A model generated the notes under the pieces. The model did not search any database. It was not told the DNA's origin and was given only the letters and a program-made list of their open reading frames with translations. From Sphingobacteriales bacterium 44-61 (GTDB lineage: Bacteria > Bacteroidota > Bacteroidia > Chitinophagales > Chitinophagaceae), in NCBI GenBank assembly GCA_001898405.1, contig MKTW01000012.1, positions 310,001 through 374,000 on the forward strand: a stretch of 64,000 bases of DNA. The letters run 5' to 3'. The position numbers and the translations under genes were made by a program. Of the stretch, positions 39,636-53,941 are shown one piece after another (within the stretch, counting starts at the first letter, position 1; every line of letters starts with the position of its first letter).

Positions 39636-40976
39636 TTATTGATTAAATTTAAACTCAACCCTTCTGTTCCTTGCCCTTCCTGCTGCGGTAGTATTGTCTT
39701 CAATCGGTTGGTCCATACCATATCCTACTGCAGTAAGCCTGTCGCTGGCTATGCCTCTCTTCACTAATGCCGCCTTCACTGCCTGTGCCCTCTTTTCTGA
39801 AAGCACCTGGTTGGAAGCTGCTTTACCAACATTGTCTGTGTGTCCGGCTATTTCCAGTTTGATCTCTTTGTACTTGTTCATATATTCAACGATCTCTGTC
39901 AGTTCGCGCAGGGAAGCTGCTGTAAGAGCCGACTTGCCAGTTACAAACTGTATGTTCGTTGCATTGAACTCCGGAATGGCAGGGCATCCGCCGTTTTCAG
40001 GAACACCTGCAATGCTGGGACATCTGTCTTCTGAATCAGGTATGCCATCTTTATCACTATCAGGTACAGGGCAGCCATTGTATTTTGCCACGCCTGCTTC
40101 CTGCGGACATTTGTCCAGGTCATCATTGATTCCGTCTCCATCGCTATCAGGTATCGGGCAACCATTATAGCGGGCAATGCCAGCCTGGTTCGGACATTTA
40201 TCTTCTTCGTCATTGATTCCATCACCGTCGCTATCAGGGACGGGGCAGCCATTGTATTTGGCAGTGCCAGGCTGATTGGGGCATTTATCCAATGAATCAA
40301 CGATGCCGTCATTGTCTGAATCAACAGGTGCTGGTGGCGGAGGTGGGGGTGGAGGCGGGGTCACTTTCTTTTTACCACCAAAAAGTTTAAACTTAAGACC
40401 TGCCTGAAAAGCCTGGTTATAGAGGTAAGGAGCAGTTGTGCTCGGCTCCTCAATTTTTGTAAGACCATGTATGTAGCGTCCATAAATAGTTACTCTTCCG
40501 CGAGGGAAGAACTCAATACCACCTGTGCCGGCGATACTGGTACTTTTAAAATCATCTTTGTTGCTTACATCGGTCAATTTGTCTTTGGCTGATAATTTAA
40601 AATCGAATTGAGGGCCTAAAGCCAGTGCAACGTATTCACCAAGATGGAATTTTACAAAAAGTGGAACTGAAAGATAACCGAGTTGCTGATCGAGACTTTC
40701 AATACCACTCAATTCCGCTTTGGAGCCTACAACGGAATAGAGCGCCTGCGGTTCTATGGAAACAACATTTCCTAAAGGGAAGTTGAGAAATACGCCTGCT
40801 GCGTATCCCCATTTCCATTTTGATTCAAGCGGCAAGCTGCCGCGATCAGTTATTTTAAACCTTGAATAATTAGCAGCGCCAACCAGGCCGCCGGAAACAC
40901 TGTTGGTGGTTTCCTGGGCCAATAAACAAAAGGATAAGCACATACTAATGAATAAAAGCGTGATGTTTTTTTTCAT
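39636..40976 (-). CDS. OmpA-family protein with thrombospondin type 3 repeats
   Basis: A 446-residue outer-membrane protein. After a signal peptide, residues 25-205 form a beta-barrel of the PorT type; a Pro-rich linker (PPPPPPPPPAPVDSDNDG) leads to four acidic calcium-binding repeats of 29 residues, each ending CP-x9-YNGCP or close to it, and the last 110 residues are an OmpA domain that binds peptidoglycan (EIAGHTDNVGKAASNQVLSEKRA and RNRRVEFKF). The repeats show strong DNA similarity every 87 bp at about 39990-40310. It anchors the outer membrane to peptidoglycan. Confidence 0.93.
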   Translation of the reverse strand: MKKNITLLFISMCLSFCLLAQETTNSVSGGLVGAANYSRFKITDRGSLPLESKWKWGYAAGVFLNFPLGNVVSIEPQALYSVVGSKAELSGIESLDQQLGYLSVPLFVKFHLGEYVALALGPQFDFKLSAKDKLTDVSNKDDFKSTSIAGTGGIEFFPRGRVTIYGRYIHGLTKIEEPSTTAPYLYNQAFQAGLKFKLFGGKKKVTPPPPPPPPPAPVDSDNDGIVDSLDKCPNQPGTAKYNGCPVPDSDGDGINDEEDKCPNQAGIARYNGCPIPDSDGDGINDDLDKCPQEAGVAKYNGCPVPDSDKDGIPDSEDRCPSIAGVPENGGCPAIPEFNATNIQFVTGKSALTAASLRELTEIVEYMNKYKEIKLEIAGHTDNVGKAASNQVLSEKRAQAVKAALVKRGIASDRLTAVGYGMDQPIEDNTTAAGRARNRRVEFKFNQ

Positions 40977-43066: not shown

Positions 43067-43376
43067 TCTCCCACTAAATAAAACAAGAACTATAAAAACG
43101 ACTCCTTCCCGTCCTTCCCGCCTTACCGGTAAAAAACTTACCGGTAAGGCGGGAAGGACGGGAAGATTGCATTACGACCTGATCTGCCATTCCTTTCTTA
43201 TTGGTATTCAATCTGGTTATCAGTATATTAGAAGAGTTTCCGAAAATTTAATTTAATAATCATTCTTTGTCCATTATTTAATGTGTAAATAGGGGTAAGC
43301 GGTTCTTCAGTTGTTCTTTTAAAAACTACTTTTGGGCGCAGCACTAATTTTGGAATCAGGATACCGGTCCGTTAGG
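43067..43376. other. 310-bp intergenic region with palindrome copy 2 and sigma promoter
   Basis: It holds the long palindrome (43105-43165) and, near the end, two overlapping candidates for the sigma gene -7 box: TACTTTTG at 43327-43334 and TAATTTTG at 43345-43352. Neither has a -33 TTG at the proper distance, so the promoter may be read by the ECF sigma factor itself or need an activator. The rest is A/T-rich without frames. Confidence 0.6.
43105..43165. repeat. Long intergenic palindrome, copy 2
   Basis: A perfect inverted repeat of two 28-bp arms around a 5-base A-rich loop, 39 bp after the sodC stop. The left arm begins CTTCCCGTCCTTCCCGCC and ends TTACCGGTAA. It equals copy 1 except that a GTTC/GAAC pair has become GTCC/GGAC, keeping pairing. 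Like copy 1 it follows a plus-strand gene. Confidence 0.87.
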
Positions 43377-43946
43377 ATGGAAATAGACGATCAATCGCTC
43401 AACACGTTACTGGCTAAAAAGGACGAAGCCGCTTTTGAACAGGTTTTTAAAACATATTTTAAGAGCCTGCATGCTTATGCCTGTACTATTCTGAAAGATG
43501 AAGATGAAGCCGAAGAAATGGTGCAGCAGGTCTTTTTCAAGCTTTGGGAACGGGCAGAAAATCTCTCTTTCAACGGTCCTATCGCAGCCTATCTCTACCG
43601 GGCCATCCACAATGAATGCCTCAATTATCTTAAGCACCAAAAGGTTCGCTCCAATCACCAATTATATGTGGCACACAGCATGAAGAACCAGGCAGATCAT
43701 GCCCAGGGTAAAATGATGGGCAAGGAATTGGAAGCGCGCTATAAAAAAGCGCTGGAGGAATTACCGGAACAGTGCAGACTGATCTTCCAGTTAAGCCGGT
43801 TTGCTGATATGAAATACCGCGAGATCGCTGATGAACTGGATATTTCCGTGAAAACGGTGGAGAACCAAATGGGAAAGGCCTTAAAATTATTGCGGCAAAA
43901 GCTGGTTGAATTTTTATCGGTACTGTTTTTATTGCTGAACATCTAA
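43377..43946 (+). CDS. ECF RNA polymerase sigma factor (Bacteroidetes FecI-like)
   Basis: A 189-residue factor started at ATG 43377. Region 2 (FEQVFKTYFKSLHAYACTI and EAEEMVQQVFFKLWER) and region 4 (LPEQCRLIFQLSRFADMKYREIA, then DISVKTVENQMGKALK) are typical of the Bacteroidetes sigma-70 family that works with FecR anti-sigma factors. The FecR gene begins right after. Normally such sigma factors turn on a TonB-dependent SusC/SusD nutrient locus; here the next gene downstream is an STN-repeat protein instead. Confidence 0.94.
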   Translation: MEIDDQSLNTLLAKKDEAAFEQVFKTYFKSLHAYACTILKDEDEAEEMVQQVFFKLWERAENLSFNGPIAAYLYRAIHNECLNYLKHQKVRSNHQLYVAHSMKNQADHAQGKMMGKELEARYKKALEELPEQCRLIFQLSRFADMKYREIADELDISVKTVENQMGKALKLLRQKLVEFLSVLFLLLNI

Positions 43947-43995
43947 AACTATTAAGCTGGAAGAAAAATTTTACCATATTAATGATGACCTCCTG

Positions 43996-44943
43996 GTGAA
44001 GTACCTGCTTGGTGAAGCCAGCCCTGTTGAAAAAGAGCAGGTGAAGCAATGGCTGACTGCCAATGCAGATAACCAGGCATACTATGATGAATTAAAAAAA
44101 GTATGGGATACCAGCCTGCAACTGGCTTCCGTTTCCACAGTAGACGAAAATAAAGCCTGGCAAAGATTCCGTCAGCGCATACAACAGGGAAACACCTGCG
44201 AAAGCCACCCGGAACCTTTTATCCGCAGATCCGGTTTTGGCTGGATGAAGATTGCAGCCTCTGTAGTATTGGTTATCGGCCTGGCTGTATTGGGTTACTG
44301 GATATATGATAACAGGCCCGCTCAGCAAATGCTGGCGCAAGCCACTAATACAGTGATAAATGATACATTGCCTGATGGATCGGTGGTAACACTTAATAAA
44401 ACATCTTCCCTTGGTTATCCTTCCCGCTTCCGCGGAAACAAACGGGAAGTGACACTGAAGGGCGAAGCGTTCTTTCATGTTGCACCTGATAAAACAAAAC
44501 CATTTATCGTTTCCGTCAATGATGTCGAGATCACTGTAGTGGGCACTTCCTTTAACGTGCGCAGCGAAAATGGCCTTACAGCTGTTATTGTGGAAACCGG
44601 TATTGTACGCGTAACACATAAAGGCAAAACAGTGGAGCTGCATGCCAATGAGCAAATAGCTGTTACTCCAACCGATAGCTTGGACAAGGAGCCTGTAACG
44701 GATAAATTATATAACTATTACCGCACCAAAGAATTTGTTTGTAATGATACACCTCTCTGGAAACTCGTGGAAGTGTTGAATGAAGCGTATAAATCAAATA
44801 TCGTGATCGGCCGCCCCGAACTGCGCGATCTTCGTATCAATATATCTCTTTATAATGAATCACTCAACAGGGTGCTGGAACTGATCAGCCTTACCCTGGG
44901 TGTAAAAATAAACAAGACCGCCGGCCAGGTGATCATTGAATAA
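43996..44943 (+). CDS. FecR-type anti-sigma factor
   Basis: A 315-residue protein as listed from GTG 43996, but homology to FecR proteins (HINDDLLVKYLLGEASP) continues upstream to about 43951 with no ATG; the true start is likely a rare codon there, such as ATT 43951 or CTG 43957, right after the sigma stop. A helical cytoplasmic N-terminus binds sigma, one membrane span lies near 85-105, then the FecR periplasmic domain (TLPDGSVVTLNKTSSLGYP, VVGTSFNVRSENG) and a C-terminal DUF4974 domain (LWKLVEVLNEAY). It holds sigma until a signal arrives from the outer-membrane STN protein encoded next. Confidence 0.92.
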   Translation: MKYLLGEASPVEKEQVKQWLTANADNQAYYDELKKVWDTSLQLASVSTVDENKAWQRFRQRIQQGNTCESHPEPFIRRSGFGWMKIAASVVLVIGLAVLGYWIYDNRPAQQMLAQATNTVINDTLPDGSVVTLNKTSSLGYPSRFRGNKREVTLKGEAFFHVAPDKTKPFIVSVNDVEITVVGTSFNVRSENGLTAVIVETGIVRVTHKGKTVELHANEQIAVTPTDSLDKEPVTDKLYNYYRTKEFVCNDTPLWKLVEVLNEAYKSNIVIGRPELRDLRINISLYNESLNRVLELISLTLGVKINKTAGQVIIE

Positions 44944-44957
44944 TACAGTTTCCCGAA

Positions 44958-46805
44958 ATGAAAAAGTTTTTGCTGCCAGGCCTCCTCCTTATTGTTTTGT
45001 TCAGCACTGTTGACGTTACTGCACAAAATCTTTTATCCAGGAATATACCGCTTGAGGTAAACCGGCAACGGCTTGACAAAGTGCTGGAGATACTGAGCAA
45101 TAAAGGAAATTTTTATTTTTCTTACAGTTCCAGTATTGTTAAGAAAGACAGTATCATCAGCATCAACACAAATAATAAGACACTGAAGGAAGTGTTGGAA
45201 CAAATTTTCAGTTCCGGTTATGAATTCATAGAAAGCGGCAATTACATTATTATCCGTAAAGCCCCGATCCGGCTTACGATGGTAACAAACCGGGCTGTGC
45301 AGGAAGAAAGAGTGTATTCTGTAAGTGGATTTGTGTATGACGAACAAACCGGCCATGCCATCCGCGAGGCGAGTGTGTATGAAAAGAGATTGCTTGCTGC
45401 TACGCTTACCAACCAGGAGGGATTTTTTAAACTCAAATTAAAAAGCGGCAGGAAAAGCACTGCAGAACTTACCCTCAGCAAAGAATTTTATGCCGATACT
45501 TCGGTGGTGATAGAACCGCGGCATAGCCAGCAGTTGACCATTACCATGCTGCCATTGGAAAATGAAGCGGAGAGAACGATCATCACCCCGGAAGATTATG
45601 AAGTGGCTGAAGCGGCGGTGCCGCCCCTGGAGGTAAAAGAAAAAGATACGATTGTGGCTGCCCCTGTGGCAGCCATCACTGATTCTGCACAGGTAGAAAG
45701 GACCGGGATGGGGCGGTTCCTGCTTTCTGCCAAGCAGAAGATACAAAGCATCAACCTGAAGAAATTCTTTACCACGAGGCCTTTCCAGGCCTCATTGGTG
45801 CCGGGCCTGGGATCTCATGGAAAAATGAGCGGACAGGTAGTCAATAATTTTTCATTAAATGTACTTGGAGGTTATACAGCCGGCACCAACGGAATTGAGA
45901 TCGGCGGCTGGTTCAATATCGATAAAAAGGATGTGAAGTATGCACAGTTTGCCGGCTGGTTCAACGTAGTAGGAGGGCAGATGAAAGGGATCCAGGTAGC
46001 AGGTATCAATAATACAGTATTGGATACAGTAAAAGCCATGCAGGCTGCTGGTGTAGGCAATTTTGTAAAAGGAAGGTTCAATGGTTTCCAGGTCGGCGGT
46101 GTATACAACCATGTAGCCGATAGTGTAAAAGGTGTGCAGGCTGCAGGCGTGGCCAATTTTGCCCGGAAAAAACTAAGTGGTGTACAGATAGCAGGAGTGG
46201 CCAATATAAGCAATAAGGAAACCAGGGGGGCGCAGATCGCCGGTGTGCTTAACTATTCCAAAAGGCTGAAAGGACTCCAGATAGGTTTGATCAATATAGC
46301 AGACACTTCGGATGGTTACAGCATCGGCCTGATCAATGTTATATTAAAAGGATATCATAAACTCAGCTTCTCAACGCATGAACTGATGGATGTGAATGTG
46401 GCATTTAAAACAGGCAACTCAAAATTGTACAGTATCCTGGAAGCAGCGATACAGTCCAATTCAGACGAAAAGATATACTCCTTTGGTTATGGCCTTGGCA
46501 GAGAAATGCCATTAAATAAGAAAAAATCGGTCACATTCAATCCGGAATTGCACTCGCAATATTTGTACCTGGGTTCCTGGGATTATACCAATATTCTTAA
46601 CCGTCTTCATCTCAACCTGAATATTAAACTCGGCAAATTCATCTCCATCTTTGCAGGCCCCGCTGTGTCAGTATATATGTCTGATCAGAAAACCGGGTTT
46701 AAAGGATATCATTTCCCCGGCCCTCCAGGCGGCTACAAGCACTTTACTATCTCGGATAAGGTAACTGGATGGTTTAGCTGGAATGCCGGCATCAATTTCT
46801 TCTGA
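44958..46805 (+). CDS. STN-domain protein with CarboxypepD-like and LA_2272-type repeat domains
   Basis: A 615-residue secreted protein. After a signal peptide comes an STN domain (about 30-98: IPLEVNRQRLDKVLEILSNKG, TLKEVLEQIFSSGYEF, ESGNYIIIRK), the domain that FecR proteins read. Then a carboxypeptidase-regulatory-like beta-sandwich (115-200: VSGFVYDEQTGHAIREASV), a variable stretch, and about eight to nine repeats with the theme GIQVAGINN / GVQAAGVANF at about 315-460, like the repeat domain of Leptospira LA_2272-type lipoproteins. The tail is beta-barrel-like. There is no TonB-dependent receptor plug or barrel. It would be the signal receptor of the preceding sigma/FecR pair. Confidence 0.85.
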   Translation: MKKFLLPGLLLIVLFSTVDVTAQNLLSRNIPLEVNRQRLDKVLEILSNKGNFYFSYSSSIVKKDSIISINTNNKTLKEVLEQIFSSGYEFIESGNYIIIRKAPIRLTMVTNRAVQEERVYSVSGFVYDEQTGHAIREASVYEKRLLAATLTNQEGFFKLKLKSGRKSTAELTLSKEFYADTSVVIEPRHSQQLTITMLPLENEAERTIITPEDYEVAEAAVPPLEVKEKDTIVAAPVAAITDSAQVERTGMGRFLLSAKQKIQSINLKKFFTTRPFQASLVPGLGSHGKMSGQVVNNFSLNVLGGYTAGTNGIEIGGWFNIDKKDVKYAQFAGWFNVVGGQMKGIQVAGINNTVLDTVKAMQAAGVGNFVKGRFNGFQVGGVYNHVADSVKGVQAAGVANFARKKLSGVQIAGVANISNKETRGAQIAGVLNYSKRLKGLQIGLINIADTSDGYSIGLINVILKGYHKLSFSTHELMDVNVAFKTGNSKLYSILEAAIQSNSDEKIYSFGYGLGREMPLNKKKSVTFNPELHSQYLYLGSWDYTNILNRLHLNLNIKLGKFISIFAGPAVSVYMSDQKTGFKGYHFPGPPGGYKHFTISDKVTGWFSWNAGINFF

Positions 46806-46895: not shown

Positions 46896-46903
46896 TATCT
46901 TTG
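46896..46903 (+). promoter_or_regulatory. -7 promoter element of the small membrane protein pair
   Basis: TATCTTTG is an exact TAnnTTTG match. Transcription near 46909 fits translation from 46940. Confidence 0.55.
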
Positions 46904-46939
46904 TCCTGCGATACTGATCAATACACTAAATCTTCCTGT

Positions 46940-47299
46940 ATGAATACGATCGCCTACCTGCTTTACCTCTTTATTACGTATTGTATTACTGTTCATGTGG
47001 GATTGGTCTTTTACCGGAATGGCAGAGCATATATCCTGGCGCTGCTGCACGGAGATGAACGGATCACCGACTCGATCAATAAGCTGTTGCTGACCGGCTA
47101 TTACCTGCTCAACCTGGGTTATGCTGCCTGGATGATCCAATCCTGGGAAACGCTAAGCAACTGGACAGAAGTATTTACCAGTATTGCTTATATGACCGGA
47201 AGGATCATGCTCATACTTGCTGTGATTCATTTTATGAATATGGGAGTGATCCTGCATTTCAGCCAAAAACGGAAACATTTCTCTCACTATAAAAACTAA
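46940..47299 (+). CDS. Small membrane protein, first of a related pair
   Basis: The start is ATG 46940, after the promoter; an in-frame codon at 46901 is inside the promoter. The 119-residue product has three predicted helices (about 3-23, 48-68, 78-100) with a cytoplasmic basic tail. The central motif NKLLLTGYYLLNLGYA is shared with the next protein (NRLFETGFYLLNLGFA). I do not recognise a family. The two genes are 5 bp apart and probably form a complex. Confidence 0.8.
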   Translation: MNTIAYLLYLFITYCITVHVGLVFYRNGRAYILALLHGDERITDSINKLLLTGYYLLNLGYAAWMIQSWETLSNWTEVFTSIAYMTGRIMLILAVIHFMNMGVILHFSQKRKHFSHYKN

Positions 47300-47303
47300 C
47301 AAT

Positions 47304-47708
47304 ATGAACTCCTCTTTGAACTTTACCGCCTATCTCATTTACCTGCCTATAGTGATTGTGCTCACCTGGTATGTGGCCCATGTATTGTTTAAAAACAGTA
47401 AAATATTTATGCTGGATATTTTTAGCGGCCGCACTGAAATAGCGCTTTCCACTAACCGGTTGTTTGAAACAGGCTTTTACCTGCTCAATCTTGGGTTTGC
47501 CCTGGTGATCATGGAGATCACTTATAATGTACCGGATAGCCGTGACCTGCTTGAAGCACTCAGCAGTAAAATCGGGGGATTCAGTATCTATCTTGGAATT
47601 ATGCTGTTCTTCAACCTTTATCTATTCTTCCGCGGACGCAGGAAATCCAGACAAAAAGCGCAAGCTGCTGAAGCAGTTGTTAATAAACCAGGTATGGGAA
47701 CACATTAG
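47304..47708 (+). CDS. Small membrane protein, second of a related pair
   Basis: A 134-residue protein with three helices (about 8-28, 58-76, 88-110) and a charged C-terminal tail (RRKSRQKAQAAEAVV). It is a diverged paralogue of the preceding protein, with matching motif NRLFETGFYLLNLGFA and comparable helix spacing; the pair looks like an old tandem duplication. A strong terminator follows. Function unknown. Confidence 0.8.
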   Translation: MNSSLNFTAYLIYLPIVIVLTWYVAHVLFKNSKIFMLDIFSGRTEIALSTNRLFETGFYLLNLGFALVIMEITYNVPDSRDLLEALSSKIGGFSIYLGIMLFFNLYLFFRGRRKSRQKAQAAEAVVNKPGMGTH

Positions 47709-47760: not shown

Positions 47761-49665
47761 TTAAAATGCTTTCTTTGGGGCTTCTCCTTTCTTTACTACC
47801 AGTTTCTGTGCGTCTTCCTGTGTAATATCATCAAAGAATTTTTTGACAGCGGCATAATCCGAAGCCGGTATTTTGTATTGCTCAAGAATAAGAGCGGTTG
47901 CCACATACACAGCGTTCTCCTGCTCATTATACCACGCTTTGGAATTAAAGCTGGCGTAATCACATTTCAGTTCTTTTTCTTTTAGCAGTACGTCTGGTTT
48001 TGAACCGGCAGGCAATTTATAGATCGTTGTGTCACGCACCTCGAATGGATAACGGAAATAATAATCCAGTTTCCTGTTTTCCGATTTAGGCAGTCTTGAT
48101 GACCATAGCTTATTCATCCGGGGATTAATAAAGAGTTTATCACCCGCATTGAACTCTGGTATTTTAGAAAAAGCCATTTTCAAAGTAGCTGTTTCTCCTT
48201 CTTTGGTAAGTATAAATTCATCGGGTTGCTTAAATCCCCAATAGAAAACGATCGCTTCTTTTTGACGGTCCTTTTTTTCTTTCAGAATATTATCCAAAGT
48301 CTCTTTGTATTCTCCACTTGCCTGAATGAGGGTTTCGCTGATGCCAGACAAATCATCAGAAAGGGAAACCGTAGTACGTGTTGTGAATACATTGCTTGAA
48401 GCATGACTTTTGGGAGTTGGTACCAGCACTCCTCCGTTTTCTGTGATTAGAAGTGCGTTCCGGTTTTCTGTAAAATTCCCTAATACCCCGAATTCTGCGG
48501 TGTTGCTGGTGCATTCAAGCCAGGTAGAATCTTTTTGACCAGGTACGCAAAGGATAACATGGTTGAAATTATTGGAAGGAAAATCAGGGTCAACCGGTTC
48601 CTGGTTAAATTCAGCATTGATGATGGCTACATGGCTTTGGATGCCGACTGTTTTTAAAGCGGCTTTCATATAATTGCTCAATGCCTTGCAATCCCCATAT
48701 TTTTTCTGATCAGTGAATGTTGCGGAGAAAGGTCTGTATCCGCCAATCCCCAGTTGAATACTTACATACCGGAAATTCTGCTGCATGTATTTATAAATCT
48801 TCCTGATCTTTTCTTTTTGGTCGGGTACATCTTTTACCAGGTTAACAAAAAACTGCTGCCGGTCGGCAGGGAGTTCATCAAGCCCTGTATAAAGATTGTT
48901 TATCCATACCCCAAAGTTTTTCCAGGAAGAAAAATCACCTTTGTAACCGTAGTGCGAGAATTGGTCAACCGATAATGCAATATGCGGATAACGGCTGCGG
49001 GGCGAAACAGCGCCTTCTTCATATTCCAGCGGGGCAAGGTCTTTGACTGCCCATTTGTATAATTTAAACTTGCCTTCTTCTGTGATTATTGGTTGAATGG
49101 TTGTGTTGACCGGTTTATATTTCAAATTCATTTCCACCGGCACCTTCGCCGTGTAGGTTGACGACAATATGCTTTCTTTAGGATGAATAAAACGATAATC
49201 CGGCACATTTAATGTGCTTTTGATCTTTAGTACATAATTCAATTCAACAGTGACAGGATAGGAGGGCGGAGTGATCCGGTAATAAGTTACATTCCCATCT
49301 TCAATAAGCCCTTCCCCGGTAGCTACCGTTGTCATATCCTTTTTCCTGTACCGGTCTGTTTGTTTTCCATTGCCATCAAACACTCTTATTTCTGCATCCT
49401 CCAGGGACACAGATTTTGAAGAATATTCATTGAAGAATAAAGCATCTTTACCTTCCGCGTTTACCACGGTGAATATTTTATGAATGCTATAGGTGGTCTT
49501 GTCAAGTGATTCGATCTCGTATTTCACCTCCTCCAGGTGCGTTACCACAGTAGCTTTGGCCCGCAGTGCTTCCGGCACCGATGCCAATGTATACAAGCCT
49601 GCCTGCGCTCCTGCTGCAAAGGATGTCAAAATACCGGCAACGATAAATAAGTTTCTCTTGTTCAT
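47761..49665 (-). CDS. DUF3857/transglutaminase-like protein (intact catalytic Cys)
   Basis: A 634-residue secreted protein, started at ATG 49665 (signal peptide MNKRNLFIVAGILTSFAAGAQA); an ATG three codons upstream is also possible. N-terminal DUF3857 (about 30-215), then a transglutaminase-like domain with C326 in KYGDCKALSNYM and His in FNHVILCVPG, and a C-terminal beta domain. The third catalytic residue, usually Asp in LDAT, is Glu here (WLECTSN), as often in this group. It follows its paralogue by 16 bp. Function in the periplasm unknown, possibly amide or peptide cleavage. Confidence 0.88.
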   Translation of the reverse strand: MNKRNLFIVAGILTSFAAGAQAGLYTLASVPEALRAKATVVTHLEEVKYEIESLDKTTYSIHKIFTVVNAEGKDALFFNEYSSKSVSLEDAEIRVFDGNGKQTDRYRKKDMTTVATGEGLIEDGNVTYYRITPPSYPVTVELNYVLKIKSTLNVPDYRFIHPKESILSSTYTAKVPVEMNLKYKPVNTTIQPIITEEGKFKLYKWAVKDLAPLEYEEGAVSPRSRYPHIALSVDQFSHYGYKGDFSSWKNFGVWINNLYTGLDELPADRQQFFVNLVKDVPDQKEKIRKIYKYMQQNFRYVSIQLGIGGYRPFSATFTDQKKYGDCKALSNYMKAALKTVGIQSHVAIINAEFNQEPVDPDFPSNNFNHVILCVPGQKDSTWLECTSNTAEFGVLGNFTENRNALLITENGGVLVPTPKSHASSNVFTTRTTVSLSDDLSGISETLIQASGEYKETLDNILKEKKDRQKEAIVFYWGFKQPDEFILTKEGETATLKMAFSKIPEFNAGDKLFINPRMNKLWSSRLPKSENRKLDYYFRYPFEVRDTTIYKLPAGSKPDVLLKEKELKCDYASFNSKAWYNEQENAVYVATALILEQYKIPASDYAAVKKFFDDITQEDAQKLVVKKGEAPKKAF

Positions 49666-49681
49666 CTCACACATTTATGGA

Positions 49682-51625
49682 TCAGGCTTTCTTTTTGCGT
49701 ATTACGAATTGTTCATTGATCAGGTCAAACAGGTTTTTATAAAACTCCTGGAATTCTGCATACTGGGTAGCCGGATAAAAAGGCTTTTTAAACTCCACCT
49801 GTATTTTTGTCATCAGGATGCCATTGGTAAATTGTGCCATCCGGGTCATAACGATGCTTGTATCCGGCATGATCAATTTGATATTTTTTGGCAATGCTTC
49901 CAGTTCATAACCTTCCGGAATATTAAAATTGCCTATAATAACATAGGCCTGATTAGTACCAAAGAACACGTCTGAATAACGATGATCTGCTACAAATGGA
50001 TTTTTTTCCAATCCTGAAAGGATGTTGGAAGAAAAATAGCTGTACTCACCTGAACTGTTCAACGGCTGATTGAATTTAATACGCTGGATCAATGGCAATG
50101 AATCATTGTCGAGATTGGTGAAACTGATATCTTCAACCGTCATGCCCTGGTTGGAAGACACATATTTTTCAATGTATTTCTCTTTTCCTTTCCTGGCAAC
50201 CGGGAGGCGCGACAGACGAGCATAATCATAACTGGAGATAGTAGCTTCACCGGTCATTTTACCTGCCTCATCAATCTTGCCATTTATCAGTATCGTGTTC
50301 CTGGAAAGGTTTTGATTAGAAAGCTGTCGCCAGCCCCATTCGTAGGTCTCTATTTTTTCAATAACAAGCCCTTGAGTTTCGAGTATCTCAGCAGGGATCA
50401 GGTGGGCAGGGGTTTCTTTTTGTGATGCATCAAGCACATATTCTTTTTTATCTATTTCTACAAAGGCCATCACTTTGTCGAATTGCTGATAACCCGGCCA
50501 TTCGAATGTACCTGCATCAGCCGTGTTCACCACACCATTGTCATGCGTACTTACCAATACAGGGTGCGCATTGAGTTTGGCATCTTTCAACAGGTTTACC
50601 AGTATCAGGTTGATCTCTCCCGAAGTACCTTTTTTATCTTTCCAGGCAGCTTTTACGCCGTCCAATGCCCAGATGCCCACATATTCATTCCACTGCATAT
50701 TTTCCTGCACATATTTATAGATCGTTTTCATCCGCTCATAAGGCTGGGTAATATCTTTCAGTTTTGCATCAAGATCAGCGGTACGGGGGATATTCTTTTT
50801 GATCTGCGCACCGAAGTCCTCATCTTCCATCAGCGCTTTGATCACCTGCAGCCAGTTCGCCACCCTGTTATAGTAACGGCCATCGACCGTGTAACCTATA
50901 ACTTTCGTTTCAAGACGGTCGCGGTAAAAATCTTCATTGATAATAAATGGCTCGCCACGGAATGAAGGTACATCCGTTATGGAATAAGTGCTGATCACCC
51001 TTCTGCCTGATGTTTCTTTTTTCCGCTCATAGTCCCTGCTCACATGCGGAGTTACATGCACTTCAATCTCTTCAGGGAAATCCATTTTAAACCGGCTGTA
51101 TTTAACAGGAATGGAACGTTGGAAATACCAATCGATAAGTCCCATGCCTACGTGCTTATATTTATATTCGACAATGGAACCTACTTTGACGCCGGGAAGA
51201 GTGAACACTTTTTCTGACCTTCTTTTATTCAATTTTTTATCATACACCAGTTTTTTCTCCAGTTTGGTGATTATGATATTACCATTATCATCGAGATTAT
51301 AAGTTTGTGCTTCCAGGCCGGTGATGCCCTGATCATTGTTCTGGCTTACATACTCAAGGTGCACATTGGCCCATTCAAGCCCTTTTTCAGAAAGTATTTT
51401 TATTCGTATCCGTCTTTTCATATCGAGCCCCGATCCAATAATGAATTCCAACTGGGCATCATCAACAAGGATCAGCGCTTCGGCTTTTTCATCAAAAGAA
51501 CATTCTTTCATTTCCAGATCGGCTTTCTCTACTTTTCCAAATGTGGGAAGTTCTGGTTCTTTTTTCTGAGCGGTAGAGAATAATGCAGCACTCAACAATA
51601 AGGTGAGCAGGGTTGATTTTTTCAT
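49682..51625 (-). CDS. DUF3857/transglutaminase-like protein with lost catalytic residues
   Basis: A 647-residue secreted protein started at ATG 51625 (signal peptide MKKSTLLTLLLSAALFSTAQ); the frame continues upstream to 51826 across a terminator, which is not coding. It has the same layout as the next gene: DUF3857 at the N-terminus, transglutaminase-like middle. The catalytic Cys position is Ser335 (KKGTSGEINLI) and the His position is Lys384 (FDKVMAFVEI); only Asp399 (YVLDAS) remains. It therefore cannot have transglutaminase chemistry and probably binds or regulates. Stop of this gene lies 16 bp before the intact paralogue. Confidence 0.86.
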   Translation of the reverse strand: MKKSTLLTLLLSAALFSTAQKKEPELPTFGKVEKADLEMKECSFDEKAEALILVDDAQLEFIIGSGLDMKRRIRIKILSEKGLEWANVHLEYVSQNNDQGITGLEAQTYNLDDNGNIIITKLEKKLVYDKKLNKRRSEKVFTLPGVKVGSIVEYKYKHVGMGLIDWYFQRSIPVKYSRFKMDFPEEIEVHVTPHVSRDYERKKETSGRRVISTYSITDVPSFRGEPFIINEDFYRDRLETKVIGYTVDGRYYNRVANWLQVIKALMEDEDFGAQIKKNIPRTADLDAKLKDITQPYERMKTIYKYVQENMQWNEYVGIWALDGVKAAWKDKKGTSGEINLILVNLLKDAKLNAHPVLVSTHDNGVVNTADAGTFEWPGYQQFDKVMAFVEIDKKEYVLDASQKETPAHLIPAEILETQGLVIEKIETYEWGWRQLSNQNLSRNTILINGKIDEAGKMTGEATISSYDYARLSRLPVARKGKEKYIEKYVSSNQGMTVEDISFTNLDNDSLPLIQRIKFNQPLNSSGEYSYFSSNILSGLEKNPFVADHRYSDVFFGTNQAYVIIGNFNIPEGYELEALPKNIKLIMPDTSIVMTRMAQFTNGILMTKIQVEFKKPFYPATQYAEFQEFYKNLFDLINEQFVIRKKKA

Positions 51626-51785
51626 GCAGTTTGGTGTGTGATGGTGGAGAAATAGGCCGGGAGGCCGGTCATTGGTGTATAAAAACGCTTGTTTGGTTAA
51701 GATATTGAATACCGCGACAAAATAGGGAAGATTATTTAATTGATCAAGAGGTAAGTGTAAACGCTTATTTTCTGAATATTCAGCT

Positions 51786-51848: not shown

Positions 51849-52826
51849 TCAAATTACTCTACCTACATGCTGCTTTCCTGATTTGGATGCTTTTTTCATA
51901 TCATCTGCTGTTGCTTCACCAAGAATGATCCTGCCGAAGCTGGAACGGATATCCACTTTTACGGCTCCGCTGCCTGATTTTCCTTCAAAGGTCTTGTCGG
52001 AATCAGGGCCATAACGGTCAGGTTTGTCAGTGCGCACCACGCCGATTGAACTGCGGTCAACAAAATTGCCGAAACTTGTACGGATAGTGTAGCTGGCAGA
52101 CAGGTTGCTTGCTGGTTTCAGGTTGATGGTGCTGTAAGATTCTTTAAGATCGAGTGAGGCAAGATTATTGGGTAATACGATCTTGCTGCTGTCGCAGAAT
52201 TCCATTTTGATCTTATTGGCTCCTGACAGGTTCTCGATCTGTATCTTGGAAAACTTAAATGTGGCATCAATATCTGCGATGCTTTTGATCTGTGCTTTTC
52301 CAAATTCAAGATGGATGTCTTTCACGCTGGATAATGAGCCAGTACTAATATTGCCGAATTTATTGGAGATAGCAACCTGCCCTTTGTAGTCGGGCAAATC
52401 AATATTGCCAAAAGTATTCTCTACATCCAGCGGCACTGTCACAGGCAGGTGAACTTCATAATTGATACGCATGCTGGAATTGCAATTGTTGCAGGAGTAA
52501 TTCTTGGATTCAATGGTCGTTTTAAAGCGGACCGTATTCCCGCTTTGACTGTCTGATACTTTGATCGCTTCAAATGTATGCTCAGCCATTCCCTTGTCGC
52601 TTGAGCCAACTTCAATCTTTATATCCACTTTAATCTCATTTCTATCCCAGGCAATGAATTTTACATGACCAAAGGTATTGGTGATATGAAGTGTGTTGCC
52701 GCTGGCAGGATAGGTTTTGGAAATGGACGTCTCTTTTGTGAATTCCAGTTTCTCGTTTTTCTGGGCATGCACCAGGGTGCTTAGCAACAGGGCTGCACTA
52801 AAGGCGGCGATAGTTATCTTTTTCAT
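51849..52826 (-). CDS. DUF4097-type secreted protein
   Basis: A 325-residue protein with a signal peptide (about 1-21) and a right-handed beta-helix-like DUF4097 domain: TYPASGNTLHITNTFGHVKF, VENTFGNIDLPDYKGQ, SNKFGNISTGSL, and similar. Each 20-25-residue rung carries the theme NTFGxI. Its start overlaps the anti-sigma gene by 29 bp, so they are coupled. Such proteins often sit with ECF sigma and anti-sigma genes in Bacteroidota and may be sensors or targets in envelope stress. A CxxC (CNNCNSS) occurs at about residue 110. Confidence 0.84.
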   Translation of the reverse strand: MKKITIAAFSAALLLSTLVHAQKNEKLEFTKETSISKTYPASGNTLHITNTFGHVKFIAWDRNEIKVDIKIEVGSSDKGMAEHTFEAIKVSDSQSGNTVRFKTTIESKNYSCNNCNSSMRINYEVHLPVTVPLDVENTFGNIDLPDYKGQVAISNKFGNISTGSLSSVKDIHLEFGKAQIKSIADIDATFKFSKIQIENLSGANKIKMEFCDSSKIVLPNNLASLDLKESYSTINLKPASNLSASYTIRTSFGNFVDRSSIGVVRTDKPDRYGPDSDKTFEGKSGSGAVKVDIRSSFGRIILGEATADDMKKASKSGKQHVGRVI

Positions 52827-53403
52827 GGCTGTCTTTTTCTTGTTTTGGGCTATTGTATTCAGAGATAATTGATAATTGTTTGGATAAAAGTTCCGCCTGC
52901 AATTGCAGGTTATTCATCATGGCTTTGATCAGTATCTCCCGGTTAGGCGATTTTTTGGCCTGCTCCTTCAGCACCCGGTAAGAACTATCGAGCGTAGCCA
53001 GGTCCTGCGTAAACTGATCATACAATTCAGGCTGATCCGCAGAAAGCGTTTTTAGCTCTTCCTGTTTTTTCTCGATCACCTGGTAGATCCGCCCGGCTCT
53101 GATTGCATATTCCGGATCATTGATACCTTGTACGGATTCCTTGGCGGAATAGCTGCCGTTCCTCCGCGCCGTCTCCTGGTCATCTTTATTCCCTTTCCAG
53201 GCAAAAAGATAGAAGCAGGCAGCCGCAGCCAGGAAAACGGCTGCAGCGGCAGACCAGCGATAAATTTTTTTTAATGGGGAACGTTTTCCGGTTTGCAAAG
53301 CCGGTACTGATGTGTTGATCCGGTCCCAAACGCTTTCAGGTGGCGGAGCATCATCAAATGAATGCCTGTTTTCCCCGATAAACTGTTTTAATTTCTTACT
53401 CAT
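52798..53403 (-). CDS. Anti-sigma factor, single-span
   Basis: A 201-residue protein with a short cytoplasmic N-terminus holding a Trp motif (DDAPPPESVWDRI), one membrane span at about 48-67 (YRWSAAAAVFLAAAACFYLF) and a periplasmic helical domain of about 130 residues, rich in Lys, Glu and Gln. Its start overlaps the upstream sigma gene end by 8 bp, and its end overlaps the DUF4097 gene. This layout marks a membrane anti-sigma factor that binds the ECF sigma. The periplasmic part shows no known family. Confidence 0.85.
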   Translation of the reverse strand: MSKKLKQFIGENRHSFDDAPPPESVWDRINTSVPALQTGKRSPLKKIYRWSAAAAVFLAAAACFYLFAWKGNKDDQETARRNGSYSAKESVQGINDPEYAIRAGRIYQVIEKKQEELKTLSADQPELYDQFTQDLATLDSSYRVLKEQAKKSPNREILIKAMMNNLQLQAELLSKQLSIISEYNSPKQEKDSHEKDNYRRL

Positions 53404-53941
53404 GTGCTTTCTGTTTTTTAAGCAAGGCGACCAGTTTTTGCTTGCCGCGGATATACTGGGTCCGCACAGTAGAGGGAGCTACCTGCATAATGTCTGCTAT
53501 TTCTTCCTGGTCGTATCCTTCCAACAGGTAAAGGCTGAGCACAGCCCGGTAACCATCCGGCAGGGACAGCAATCCCATTTTTATCATGTTTACATTATAA
53601 TCGATCTCTTCTTCGCTCATTTCTTCATCCTGTGACATGTCCAGGTTTTCAGGCTCCAGTTCCACCAGGGTCAGCCGTCTTTTTTTGATCAGGCTGATAC
53701 TTTTGAATACCACGATCTGTTTTACCCATGCTCCAAAAGTGGATTGTTGCCGGAAGGAACTGATCTGCATAAAAGCATCAGTAAAGGATTCCTGAAGGAC
53801 GTCTTCCGCATCGGCTGTATTATTGGTGATCCGGAGGGCTGTATTATACATAGCCCTCGCATATCTCTCGTATAACAAGCGATAGGCAGTCTTATCTCCC
53901 TTGATGCATTGCTCTACCAATACATCAGCAGTTGGTATCAT
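53396..53941 (-). CDS. ECF RNA polymerase sigma factor
   Basis: A 181-residue sigma factor with region 2 (YRLLYERYARAMYNTALRIT, then TADAEDVLQESFTDAFMQI) and region 4 (LPDGYRAVLSLYLLEGYDQEE, APSTVRTQYIRGKQKLVALL). It is distinct from the FecI-like factor in this window. The product of the next gene, overlapping by 8 bp, is its membrane anti-sigma factor. It likely controls an envelope regulon including the downstream DUF4097 gene. Confidence 0.93.
   Translation of the reverse strand: MIPTADVLVEQCIKGDKTAYRLLYERYARAMYNTALRITNNTADAEDVLQESFTDAFMQISSFRQQSTFGAWVKQIVVFKSISLIKKRRLTLVELEPENLDMSQDEEMSEEEIDYNVNMIKMGLLSLPDGYRAVLSLYLLEGYDQEEIADIMQVAPSTVRTQYIRGKQKLVALLKKQKAHE

Follow-up and report, generated by a model that had tools for sequence, protein, structure and literature searches.

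What can a FecR anti-sigma factor be responding to when its STN-bearing partner has no detectable transporter attached? This question is raised by positions 43377-46805 of the window, the 64,000-nucleotide stretch of DNA analysed here as a whole, where profile scans of the translated frames detected an ECF sigma factor, a FecR anti-sigma factor and a 615-residue STN protein. To our knowledge, work on FecR signalling has so far treated it as a side effect of TonB-driven uptake, and among the open-licence literature matches listed (a set outside which subscription journals and bioRxiv lie) no description of a FecR partner of the solenoid-barrel kind was found. The features of the locus are as follows.

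43290..43314, + strand: putative self-regulatory ECF promoter, TAGGGGTA-N13-TTGT, ahead of the sigma gene (recurrence, fixed spacer)
43377..43946, + strand: ECF sigma factor, TIGR02985 group (profile match)
43957..44943, + strand: FecR anti-sigma factor (Pfam matches)
44958..46805, + strand: 615-residue STN/solenoid/barrel protein, proposed transducer (frame, Pfam and NCBIfam matches)
45036..45275, + strand: STN domain, residues about 27-106 (Pfam STN; PupR cell-surface-signalling domain fold)
45321..45554, + strand: CarboxypepD_reg-like domain, residues 122-199 (score below cut-off, poor model)
45825..46349, + strand: LA_2272-type GxQxAGxxN repeats, residues about 290-464 (NF047436; modelled beta-solenoid, probably periplasmic)
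46350..46802, + strand: 8-stranded OmpA/OprF/NspA-like beta-barrel, residues about 465-615, last residue F (structure matches, strand count)

Domain composition of the three proteins

The sigma factor scores 183.5 bits against TIGR02985 (cut-off 126.4) and its gene adjoins that of FecR, which probably starts at the CTG codon at 43957. FecR matches PF04773 (60.7 bits, above cut-off) and FecR_C, PF16344 (36.7 bits, cut-off 24.4), and the STN-like C-terminal domain is present; the layout comprises a cytosolic N-terminal part, one predicted transmembrane stretch (by sequence reading), a periplasmic FecR domain and FecR_C. The 615-residue protein begins with a typical signal peptide ending in ...TAQ, as judged by eye, followed by an STN domain (PF07660, 29.8 bits, cut-off 28.4), a CarbopepD_reg_2 match that lies just below cut-off (30.2 bits against 32.2) yet reaches E=4.7e-7, and LA_2272 repeats (NF047436, 44.3 bits, curated cut-off 25). 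All three components named in a first-pass annotation of this sequence, including the C-terminal domain of FecR, were thus borne out by profile scores.

No Plug, TonB_dep_Rec or TonB-barrel match was obtained for the 615-residue protein in Pfam at E<=0.1, no match to the SusC/RagA model TIGR04056 at E<=0.1, and none to solved structures by sequence at E<=1. The genome has 20 STN matches in 18 proteins, 17 of which have open frames of 1095-1213 residues (length only); the window protein is the sole one at about 620 residues and, going by these frames, is alone among the 18 in being too short for a TonB transporter. With SusC/RagA transducers it shares the N-terminal order of signal peptide, STN and CarboxypepD-like domain as well as FecI/FecR upstream, but it has no model match or plug and measures about 615 residues against 1095-1213 in the same genome.

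The STN-CarboxypepD part also resembles that of small STN-TonB receptors (L050, E=2.7e-16), as expected if the protein were a decayed TonB-dependent transducer with a shrunken, functionless barrel. This reading is already disfavoured and seems scarcely credible, since the C-terminal half constitutes a family of its own, whose profile matches 117 of 392 genomes of the phylum at E<=1e-6 (some matches covering repeats only), and frames are intact at all loci save L063, where the STN-barrel gene is broken. Selection is moreover purifying, with pN 0.175 and pS 0.78 against a same-genus copy, the synonymous sites being saturated. Four STN proteins of 874-934 residues (L047-L050) were considered as further non-transporter partners and rejected, as Plug was detected in 4/4 and a TonB barrel in 3/4.

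Structure models and topology

The two structure models agree on a solenoid of 7+4-residue strands followed by 8 longer strands; a single large barrel built from the repeats together with the C-terminus was rejected on this ground. A plug and a 22-strand barrel in the C-terminal half, which the first-pass annotation named as counter-evidence, were found neither by Pfam nor in the models, where the barrel has 8 strands and lacks the 22-strand feature of transducers. Its description of an STN protein without plug or receptor barrel therefore agrees with both the Pfam scan and the models, with the amendment that a small 8-stranded barrel does occupy residues about 465-615.

In VIA-align comparisons the barrel matched 6x9z (Z 13.6, rmsd 1.9-2.0 over 109-110) and OprF 4rlc (Z 13.2-13.4, rmsd 2.9 over 122), and the STN domain matched 6ovk_B of PupR (Z 8.3, rmsd 2.5 over 79 residues), a Z that is marginal by itself. 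The solenoid repeats gave structural matches to tapirin and tailspike proteins by the same program; for repeats such as these, a Z below about 13 may reflect a common arrangement only. The top-ranked LpxD/GlmU rows of the structure comparison have rmsd near 10, the CarboxypepD-like region has pLDDT under 50, and the whole 615-residue model found no Foldseek match at E<=0.001; the fold calls rest on VIA-align in combination with Pfam and the strand pattern.

FecIRA-type systems (FecA/FecR/FecI, FoxA/FoxR, PupB/PupR) have in common with this locus an ECF sigma, a FecR with an STN-like C-terminus and an outer-membrane partner with an N-terminal STN. The partner in the window differs in that neither a plug nor a 22-strand barrel is detectable and a solenoid and an 8-stranded barrel stand in their place, and the TonB receptor, where present, is here a separate STN-less gene. 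Autotransporters, which join a beta-helix to a 12-strand translocator, differ in that the modelled barrel has 8 strands, not 12.

The LA_2272-type repeats are probably periplasmic and not surface-exposed, because the modelled barrel is even-stranded with both ends in the periplasm. A surface repeat array, as the repeat-bearing signal source of the first-pass annotation could be taken, is hence not what the models predict. The repeats exceed the curated cut-off of NF047436, whose family name contains "surface" and whose entry, as listed, carries no functional assignment, whereas the fold in the window and the N-terminal contexts favour the periplasm.

Distribution and FecR lineage

Including the window, 53 STN-solenoid-barrel loci were collected, a non-random set picked for having STN plus barrel and for resembling the window protein or L046, so that the presence of STN among them is not itself a result. 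FecR is adjacent in 51/53 and sigma in 45/53; L041 and L098 have no FecR nearby and are among the 8 without an adjacent sigma. None of the 26 standalone relatives without STN that were examined has FecR or sigma nearby, which, taken with the 51/53, indicates that STN and FecR travel together. Tens of genomes contain the trio, which is therefore not a chance arrangement. FecR is thus paired, in a conserved manner, with something other than a TonB-dependent transporter, and neither of the two outcomes that had been named beforehand as speaking against the first-pass annotation (a plug and 22-strand barrel, or no co-occurrence with FecR genes in other genomes) was found. The regions were taken from the matches listed, 40 through a phylum search and 20 through an order search, many f43 and f18 matches being omitted; L055, L062 and L113 were dropped because their contigs or coordinates coincide with those of L034, L035 and L051, while L035, L058, L061 and L064, mutually 93-96% alike, were each counted.

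These counts also bear on whether the protein is a surface adhesin under incidental ECF sigma control, with STN as a relic. The number of repeats does vary, as in adhesins, with 5 to 10 strict motif matches across 6 proteins, but a relic STN sits poorly with FecR near 51/53 STN-bearing proteins and FecR or sigma near 0/26 STN-less ones, and a small even-stranded barrel does not put the repeats outside; we consider this very improbable.

In the FecR tree, 40 of the 51 barrel-linked FecRs form one starred clade (99/94), to which a fourth other FecR is sister; the remaining 11 lie outside it, in a branch with three other FecRs. A 23-row clade of other FecRs includes every FecR of the window's genome in the tree but the window's. 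The comparison comprised 27 other FecRs from five genomes; in the DNA covered, another STN protein accompanies 25 of them and none is seen for L180 and L195.

A putative promoter motif and its predicted targets

The motif TAGGGGTA-N13-TTGT lies upstream of sigma genes as an exact copy in 23/44 cases and with <=1 mismatch in 30/44, totals in which the 43 sigma upstream regions from which it was derived are recounted. More independent evidence comes from its fixed spacing, from its placement before receptors and barrels and from genome-wide counts. When the spacer was varied from 6 to 23, 44 matches were found at 13 and <=2 at any other length; the reversed control had 0 at spacer 13, and the control loci comprise 0.25 and 0.44 Mb against 1.51 Mb of test loci, both strands. 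Of the 44 matches, 23 precede sigma genes, 12 the receptor gene and 5 STN-less barrel genes, the other 4 lying elsewhere; exact copies precede 0/51 FecR and 0/53 STN genes. Allowing <=1 mismatch, 17/28 receptor pieces have the motif, as do 6/13 STN-less barrels; 12 is the safer total for the latter because one is the second half of the broken L063 gene, and the count misses L037, where an exact copy overlaps the called start. In G003 a barrel gene on another contig also has the motif, and no copy precedes the five sigmas of the f12/f18 family that were examined.

Across 12 genomes there are 29 matches against 9 in the reversed control. Of these, 9 precede sigma genes, 5 receptor genes and 4 STN-less barrel genes (18 together), one precedes a PepSY-like gene inside a cassette, and ten lie elsewhere, about the control level, on which basis a wide sigma regulon was rejected. 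Outside the cassette only repeated cases were kept. The window's genome has 3 exact copies, 2 of them outside the locus: one before an outer-membrane protein, with the motif present ahead of its homologues as well, the other before a DUF3108 gene, where its meaning is uncertain. The homologous 217-residue outer-membrane proteins have exact copies in G000 and G009, and a fresh test in G001 found the motif there with one mismatch; at E<=1e-8 the protein occurs only in these three among the 12 genomes. A second TonB-receptor family is preceded by the motif in G002 and G001. A published Flavobacterium ECF motif was considered as an equivalent and rejected, as the part of that report available to us gives a CGT box (PMC9723704).

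TonB receptor and GIN lipoprotein neighbours

An STN-less TonB receptor (STN absence judged by Pfam in L032 and by reading of the N-terminus in the others) adjoins the trio in 25/53 loci, L042 with a 194-residue fragment and L040 with a 917-residue relative being counted as receptors, a receptor and/or GIN gene in 41/53, and neither in 12/53, among them the window, some of the DNA stretches being short. The receptor gene has the sigma promoter motif and therefore resembles output, which suggests that sensing and transport are divided between separate proteins, the receptor being a predicted output. The proposal that nutrient uptake has been replaced as the signal source holds in so far as the FecR partner is a non-transporter, and is weakened by the receptor beside the trio in 25/53; the best reading is that uptake has been uncoupled from sensing rather than simply replaced.

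Alternatively, the STN-solenoid-barrel protein could be an accessory subunit, the neighbouring receptor (with the GIN lipoprotein) sensing, binding the barrel and signalling through it. An output-like receptor gene argues against this, as does the window's genome, which is without this receptor (best match 23% over part of it) and yet keeps the trio intact and under purifying selection. The frequent adjacency noted above is in its favour, together with the same receptor and GIN families beside the tethered proteins described below (GIN in 9/11, receptor in 3) and with G001, where this receptor is absent and the motif stands before a TonB receptor of another family. On balance we regard it as unlikely.

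The GIN proteins near the trio resemble exported lipoproteins. A role as iron gene was rejected, as the sole match in the accessible part of one study was a single P. gingivalis gene with a 1.4-fold, non-significant change (PMC10434189).

Proposed mechanism

Domains, fold, gene linkage, FecR lineage and the motif with its placement, all read from sequence or model, make it likely that the trio is a dedicated, self-regulated cell-surface signalling system with the sensor split from the transporter. FecR would hold the sigma factor, and we infer a periplasmic contact in which the N-terminal STN of the 615-residue protein docks on FecR_C, in the manner that the accessible part of one report describes for the FoxA signalling domain on FoxR (PMC11637429). 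The rest of the protein would form a beta-solenoid in the periplasm, with the 8-stranded barrel as its outer-membrane anchor; there is no plug, and therefore the usual action of TonB should not be available. A ligand, a partner of the barrel or the state of the membrane could cause a change in the barrel or solenoid, which may alter the STN-FecR contact and so lead to cleavage of FecR, and the freed sigma factor could then transcribe its own operon from TAGGGGTA-N13-TTGT. Its further targets in relatives would be the separate STN-less TonB receptor and STN-less solenoid-barrels, and in some of them a GIN-domain lipoprotein or a distal outer-membrane protein.

A transducer of this plug-free kind would show that inputs other than TonB-driven uptake can drive the STN-FecR relay, and would open STN signalling to study apart from transport; the conserved promoter motif makes a reporter feasible.

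A possible second wiring of the same sensor

At 11 loci in other families (L046, L197-L206) the same solenoid-barrel forms the C-terminus of a long, tethered protein that is predicted to be anchored in the inner membrane. Nine are complete (L046, L197, L199-L204, L206) and L198 and L205 are truncated; by sequence reading, the complete ones consist of a short N-terminus, one transmembrane segment, a long low-complexity tether and the barrel. This order resembles that of Dma2 as set out in the portion available of the work on Dma1-3 of Bacteroides thetaiotaomicron, a dual membrane-spanning anti-sigma family (PMC13088901). The window protein shares with Dma a C-terminal outer-membrane barrel that would report to an ECF sigma, and differs in starting with a signal peptide and STN, so that it would be exported whole and act on a separate FecR through STN.

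We lean, by a small degree, towards the solenoid plus 8-stranded barrel being a general outer-membrane sensor module with at least two ECF wirings in Bacteroidota (STN-FecR, and a long periplasmic tether to an inner-membrane anti-sigma) and the same neighbours, in which signalling is free of TonB and transporter and the transporter is output. One sensor module with two relays and the same neighbour genes would connect FecR systems with the Dma family, itself of recent description, and swapping the relay with the barrel kept offers a direct route to what such barrels sense.

The module might read the condition of the outer membrane (lipid, barrel assembly, vesiculation) and not a ligand, the trio being a Dma split in two. 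Most predicted strands in the model are joined by short loops, there is no plug, and the same sensor occurs in the Dma architecture, whose Dma1/Dma2 mutants show altered vesicle production in the accessible part of the report (PMC13088901). GIN/DUF2807 is classed, in the part available of another study, as a Toastrack domain of envelope-stress systems, but the same source predicts Toastrack to be intracellular (PMC11237479), whereas the GIN proteins at these loci resemble lipoproteins destined for export, and a predicted regulon with TonB receptors suggests uptake. Sensing of envelope state is thus a real possibility that falls somewhat short of our preference; it is compatible with the best explanation, for which it merely names the signal.

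The motif TAGGGGTA-N13-TTGT was rejected for the tethered wiring, with none at the 11 loci and a sigma apparently of another group. An ECF sigma, a candidate counterpart of the ECF21 sigma next to Dma genes, is adjacent in 8/11, and in all three scanned the best model is TIGR02952, below cut-off, whereas the sigma of the window is TIGR02985-type.

Organization of the trio

The first-pass annotation had described an ECF sigma factor and a FecR anti-sigma factor accompanied by an STN-repeat protein as the non-TonB partner, and this observation was right. The three genes are as follows.

43377-43946, forward strand: ECF sigma factor (TIGR02985, 183.5 bits against a cut-off of 126.4)
43957 onward (probable CTG start), forward strand: FecR, directly after the sigma gene
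44958-46805, forward strand: 615-residue STN protein (STN over the cut-off, LA_2272 repeats well over it, CarboxypepD_reg just under it)

Where the FecR proteins of relatives begin, the sequence holds no ATG, GTG or TTG, and a CTG at this position is common to four related genomes (the window and loci L031, L032 and L051); translation is therefore likely to begin at CTG 43957. The list of open frames places the start at GTG 43996, 13 codons downstream (region 43951-43996). A profile search of the 615-residue protein gave no match to a plug or TonB-barrel domain at E<=0.1, in agreement with the earlier proposal that the transducer is not a transporter. Among the 18 STN proteins of its own genome (5.6 Mb in 20 contigs), it alone lies outside the open-frame range of 1095-1213 residues. 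Its named relatives in similarity searches belong to Chitinophagaceae, namely Terrimonas (63 % identity, best segment), Niastella and Flavihumibacter. Purifying selection acts on the trio; for the STN protein and its same-genus copy pN is 0.175 and pS 0.78, with synonymous sites saturated. An inverted repeat with two perfect arms of 27 bases, 43106-43132 and 43138-43164, separates the sigma gene from a gene for Cu/Zn superoxide dismutase; it was read by eye and is probably a terminator.

Co-occurrence with FecR and sigma

Four similarity searches yielded, with the window counted, 53 loci of STN-solenoid-barrel type. Of these, 51 have an adjacent FecR gene and 45 an adjacent sigma gene, which bears out the expectation that the STN protein accompanies FecR in other genomes. 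Six loci (L107, L208, L210, L211, L215 and L216) have FecR and no adjacent sigma, and two (L041 and L098) have neither nearby. In a FecR tree of 78 rows (51 barrel-linked and 27 other FecRs), 40 of the barrel-linked proteins, including that of the window, fall in one starred clade, and 23 of the others, including all others from the same genome present in the tree, form a separate clade. The remaining four come from a single order-level relative (G045) and group close to the barrel-linked FecRs, one as sister to the 40-row clade and three on a branch shared with the other 11.

Beyond the window's class, many genomes carry standalone solenoid-barrel proteins of ~290-530 residues, and most of these genomes belong to a single family, f43. 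Sigma, FecR, the GIN gene and the receptor (the neighbour genes described below) were found at none of the 26 standalone STN-less loci from the phylum search whose DNA was read, and no regulatory gene was attached in the 23 loci read (L114-L136).

Neighbouring genes

Comparison of 37 loci brought out two recurring neighbour families: one is a lipoprotein of the DUF2807 'head GIN' type, the other a TonB receptor of ~780 residues that lacks STN but has CarboxypepD and Plug domains. Of the 53 loci, 25 carry the receptor, 31 the GIN gene and 41 at least one of them; an STN-less solenoid-barrel occurs in 13 (12 if a broken gene is left out). DUF2807 matches number 3-7 per genome in six genomes, some being two pieces of one gene, so chance adjacency to the trio would be rare. 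Neither receptor nor GIN gene is present in the window. The lineage has probably lost the GIN gene, because the same-genus genome G001 keeps it immediately behind the STN gene, and next come two genes for small membrane proteins that resemble those of the window.

In the window itself, 46901-47708 encodes a pair of small membrane proteins side by side; they look similar by eye, and neither reaches a Pfam cut-off. Tandem DUF3857/transglutaminase-like exported proteins lie at 47761-51640 (reverse strand; second domain under cut-off in one), and proteins resembling this pair by eye adjoin the locus in G001.

A candidate promoter motif

TAGGGGT, part of a bipartite word, was found in 28 of 43 sigma upstream regions; in 15 shuffles no word exceeded 9. 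Across the 53 loci AGGGGTA-Nx-TTGT gave 44 matches at x=13, all with T before the first A, and at most 2 at every other x from 6 to 23; the reversed sequence of these loci gave none at N13. The matches precede sigma genes (23), receptors (12) and STN-less barrels (5), with 4 elsewhere. Allowing one mismatch, the motif lies before 30/44 sigmas, 17/28 receptor pieces, 6/13 STN-less barrels, 4/32 GIN genes, 1/51 FecR and 0/53 STN genes. It is absent from the standalone (n=26) and tethered (n=11) loci, and 29 other FecR loci gave one match, with a different spacer. We infer that the motif is used by the trio's sigma.

Genome-wide search of G003 revealed an STN-less barrel on another contig with the motif 25 bases upstream. 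Homologous 217-residue outer-membrane proteins carry it just upstream in all three genomes having one (12 searched); two exact copies prompted attention and the third has one mismatch. The window's genome holds a third exact copy (G000:C4:85545-85569, L220/L250), 33 bases before a DUF3108 gene, and in G004 (L237:1566-1991) a gene for a PepSY-like lipoprotein, placed between receptor and GIN gene, has the motif upstream.

Predicted structure and topology

An AlphaFold2 model of the whole protein, built on 16 aligned relatives, reached a pTM of 0.41 with low confidence for the linker and CarboxypepD part, and pLDDT of 76-92 per ten-residue block from residue 321 onward; the C-terminal part modelled alone (19 sequences) gave pLDDT 85.6 and pTM 0.68. 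With VIA-align, residues 27-106 align with the signalling domain of PupR (Z 8.3, rmsd 2.5 over 79), and residues 465-615 resemble 8-stranded outer-membrane barrels, namely the designed TMB 6x9z (Z 13.6, rmsd 1.9 over 109) and OprF (Z 13.4, rmsd 2.9 over 122). The last residue is F in 16/16 aligned proteins. Residues 290-465 resemble beta-helices such as tapirin (Z 10.4, rmsd 2.5 over 163), tailspikes also fitting closely; LpxD rows rank top, yet at rmsd near 10. Since Z values of such size prove little by themselves for repeat proteins, it is mainly the regular 7+4-residue strand pattern which suggests that this region forms a beta-solenoid.

Both ends of a barrel with an even number of strands are periplasmic. 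The solenoid should therefore lie in the periplasm, and the repeats are probably periplasmic rather than a surface array; the N-terminus of the tethered relatives, predicted to cross the inner membrane, supports this.

Tethered relatives

When 248 genomes of the order were searched with the L046 protein, 50 gave a match, and 20 regions were fetched. Among these and L046, the same solenoid-barrel occurs without STN or FecR in 11 loci. Nine complete proteins (668-781 residues; those of L198 and L205 are incomplete) have a short N-terminus, one TM and ~250-350 low-complexity residues, and form one clade (99, starred) apart from the STN group in a barrel tree made by a quick method. The order resembles that of Dma2, which PMC13088901 gives as anti-sigma domain, TM, disordered tether and barrel, the short N-terminus here being a putative anti-sigma domain. 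In 8 of the 11 loci the barrel gene follows an ECF sigma gene of another group, and a GIN gene lies upstream in 9. The receptor beyond it was seen in 3, several stretches ending before that point; its best match in G037 (54 % identical) is on another contig, and the G481 genome has no close match. With the same barrel and neighbour genes in both wirings, one sensor and its set of neighbours thus seem to be shared by two different relays.

Possible mechanism and signal

In PMC11637429, the FoxA signalling domain binds FoxR when signal is absent and shields it from proteolysis. By analogy, the STN domain may remain bound to FecR as long as barrel and solenoid keep their state. The GIN domain has been placed among the Toastrack domains that belong to envelope-stress systems (PMC11237479), and Dma proteins affect vesiculation (PMC13088901); both weakly suggest envelope state as the signal. 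The presence of TonB receptors in the predicted regulon suggests that uptake is one of the system's outputs. The first-pass interpretation was half right: the transducer is a non-transporter, but the repeats are probably periplasmic, and nutrient uptake is not simply replaced, transport being split off in many relatives rather than abolished.

Elsewhere in the window, a second ECF sigma operon (51849-53941, reverse strand) encodes the sigma, a 201-residue protein in which one TM-like stretch is visible by eye, and a 325-residue exported protein, the latter two with no Pfam match at E<=0.01. At 39636-40976 (reverse strand) lies what we take to be an OmpA-like protein, read as a barrel-like N-terminal part, then D-x-D-x-D-G repeats, then an OmpA-like end.
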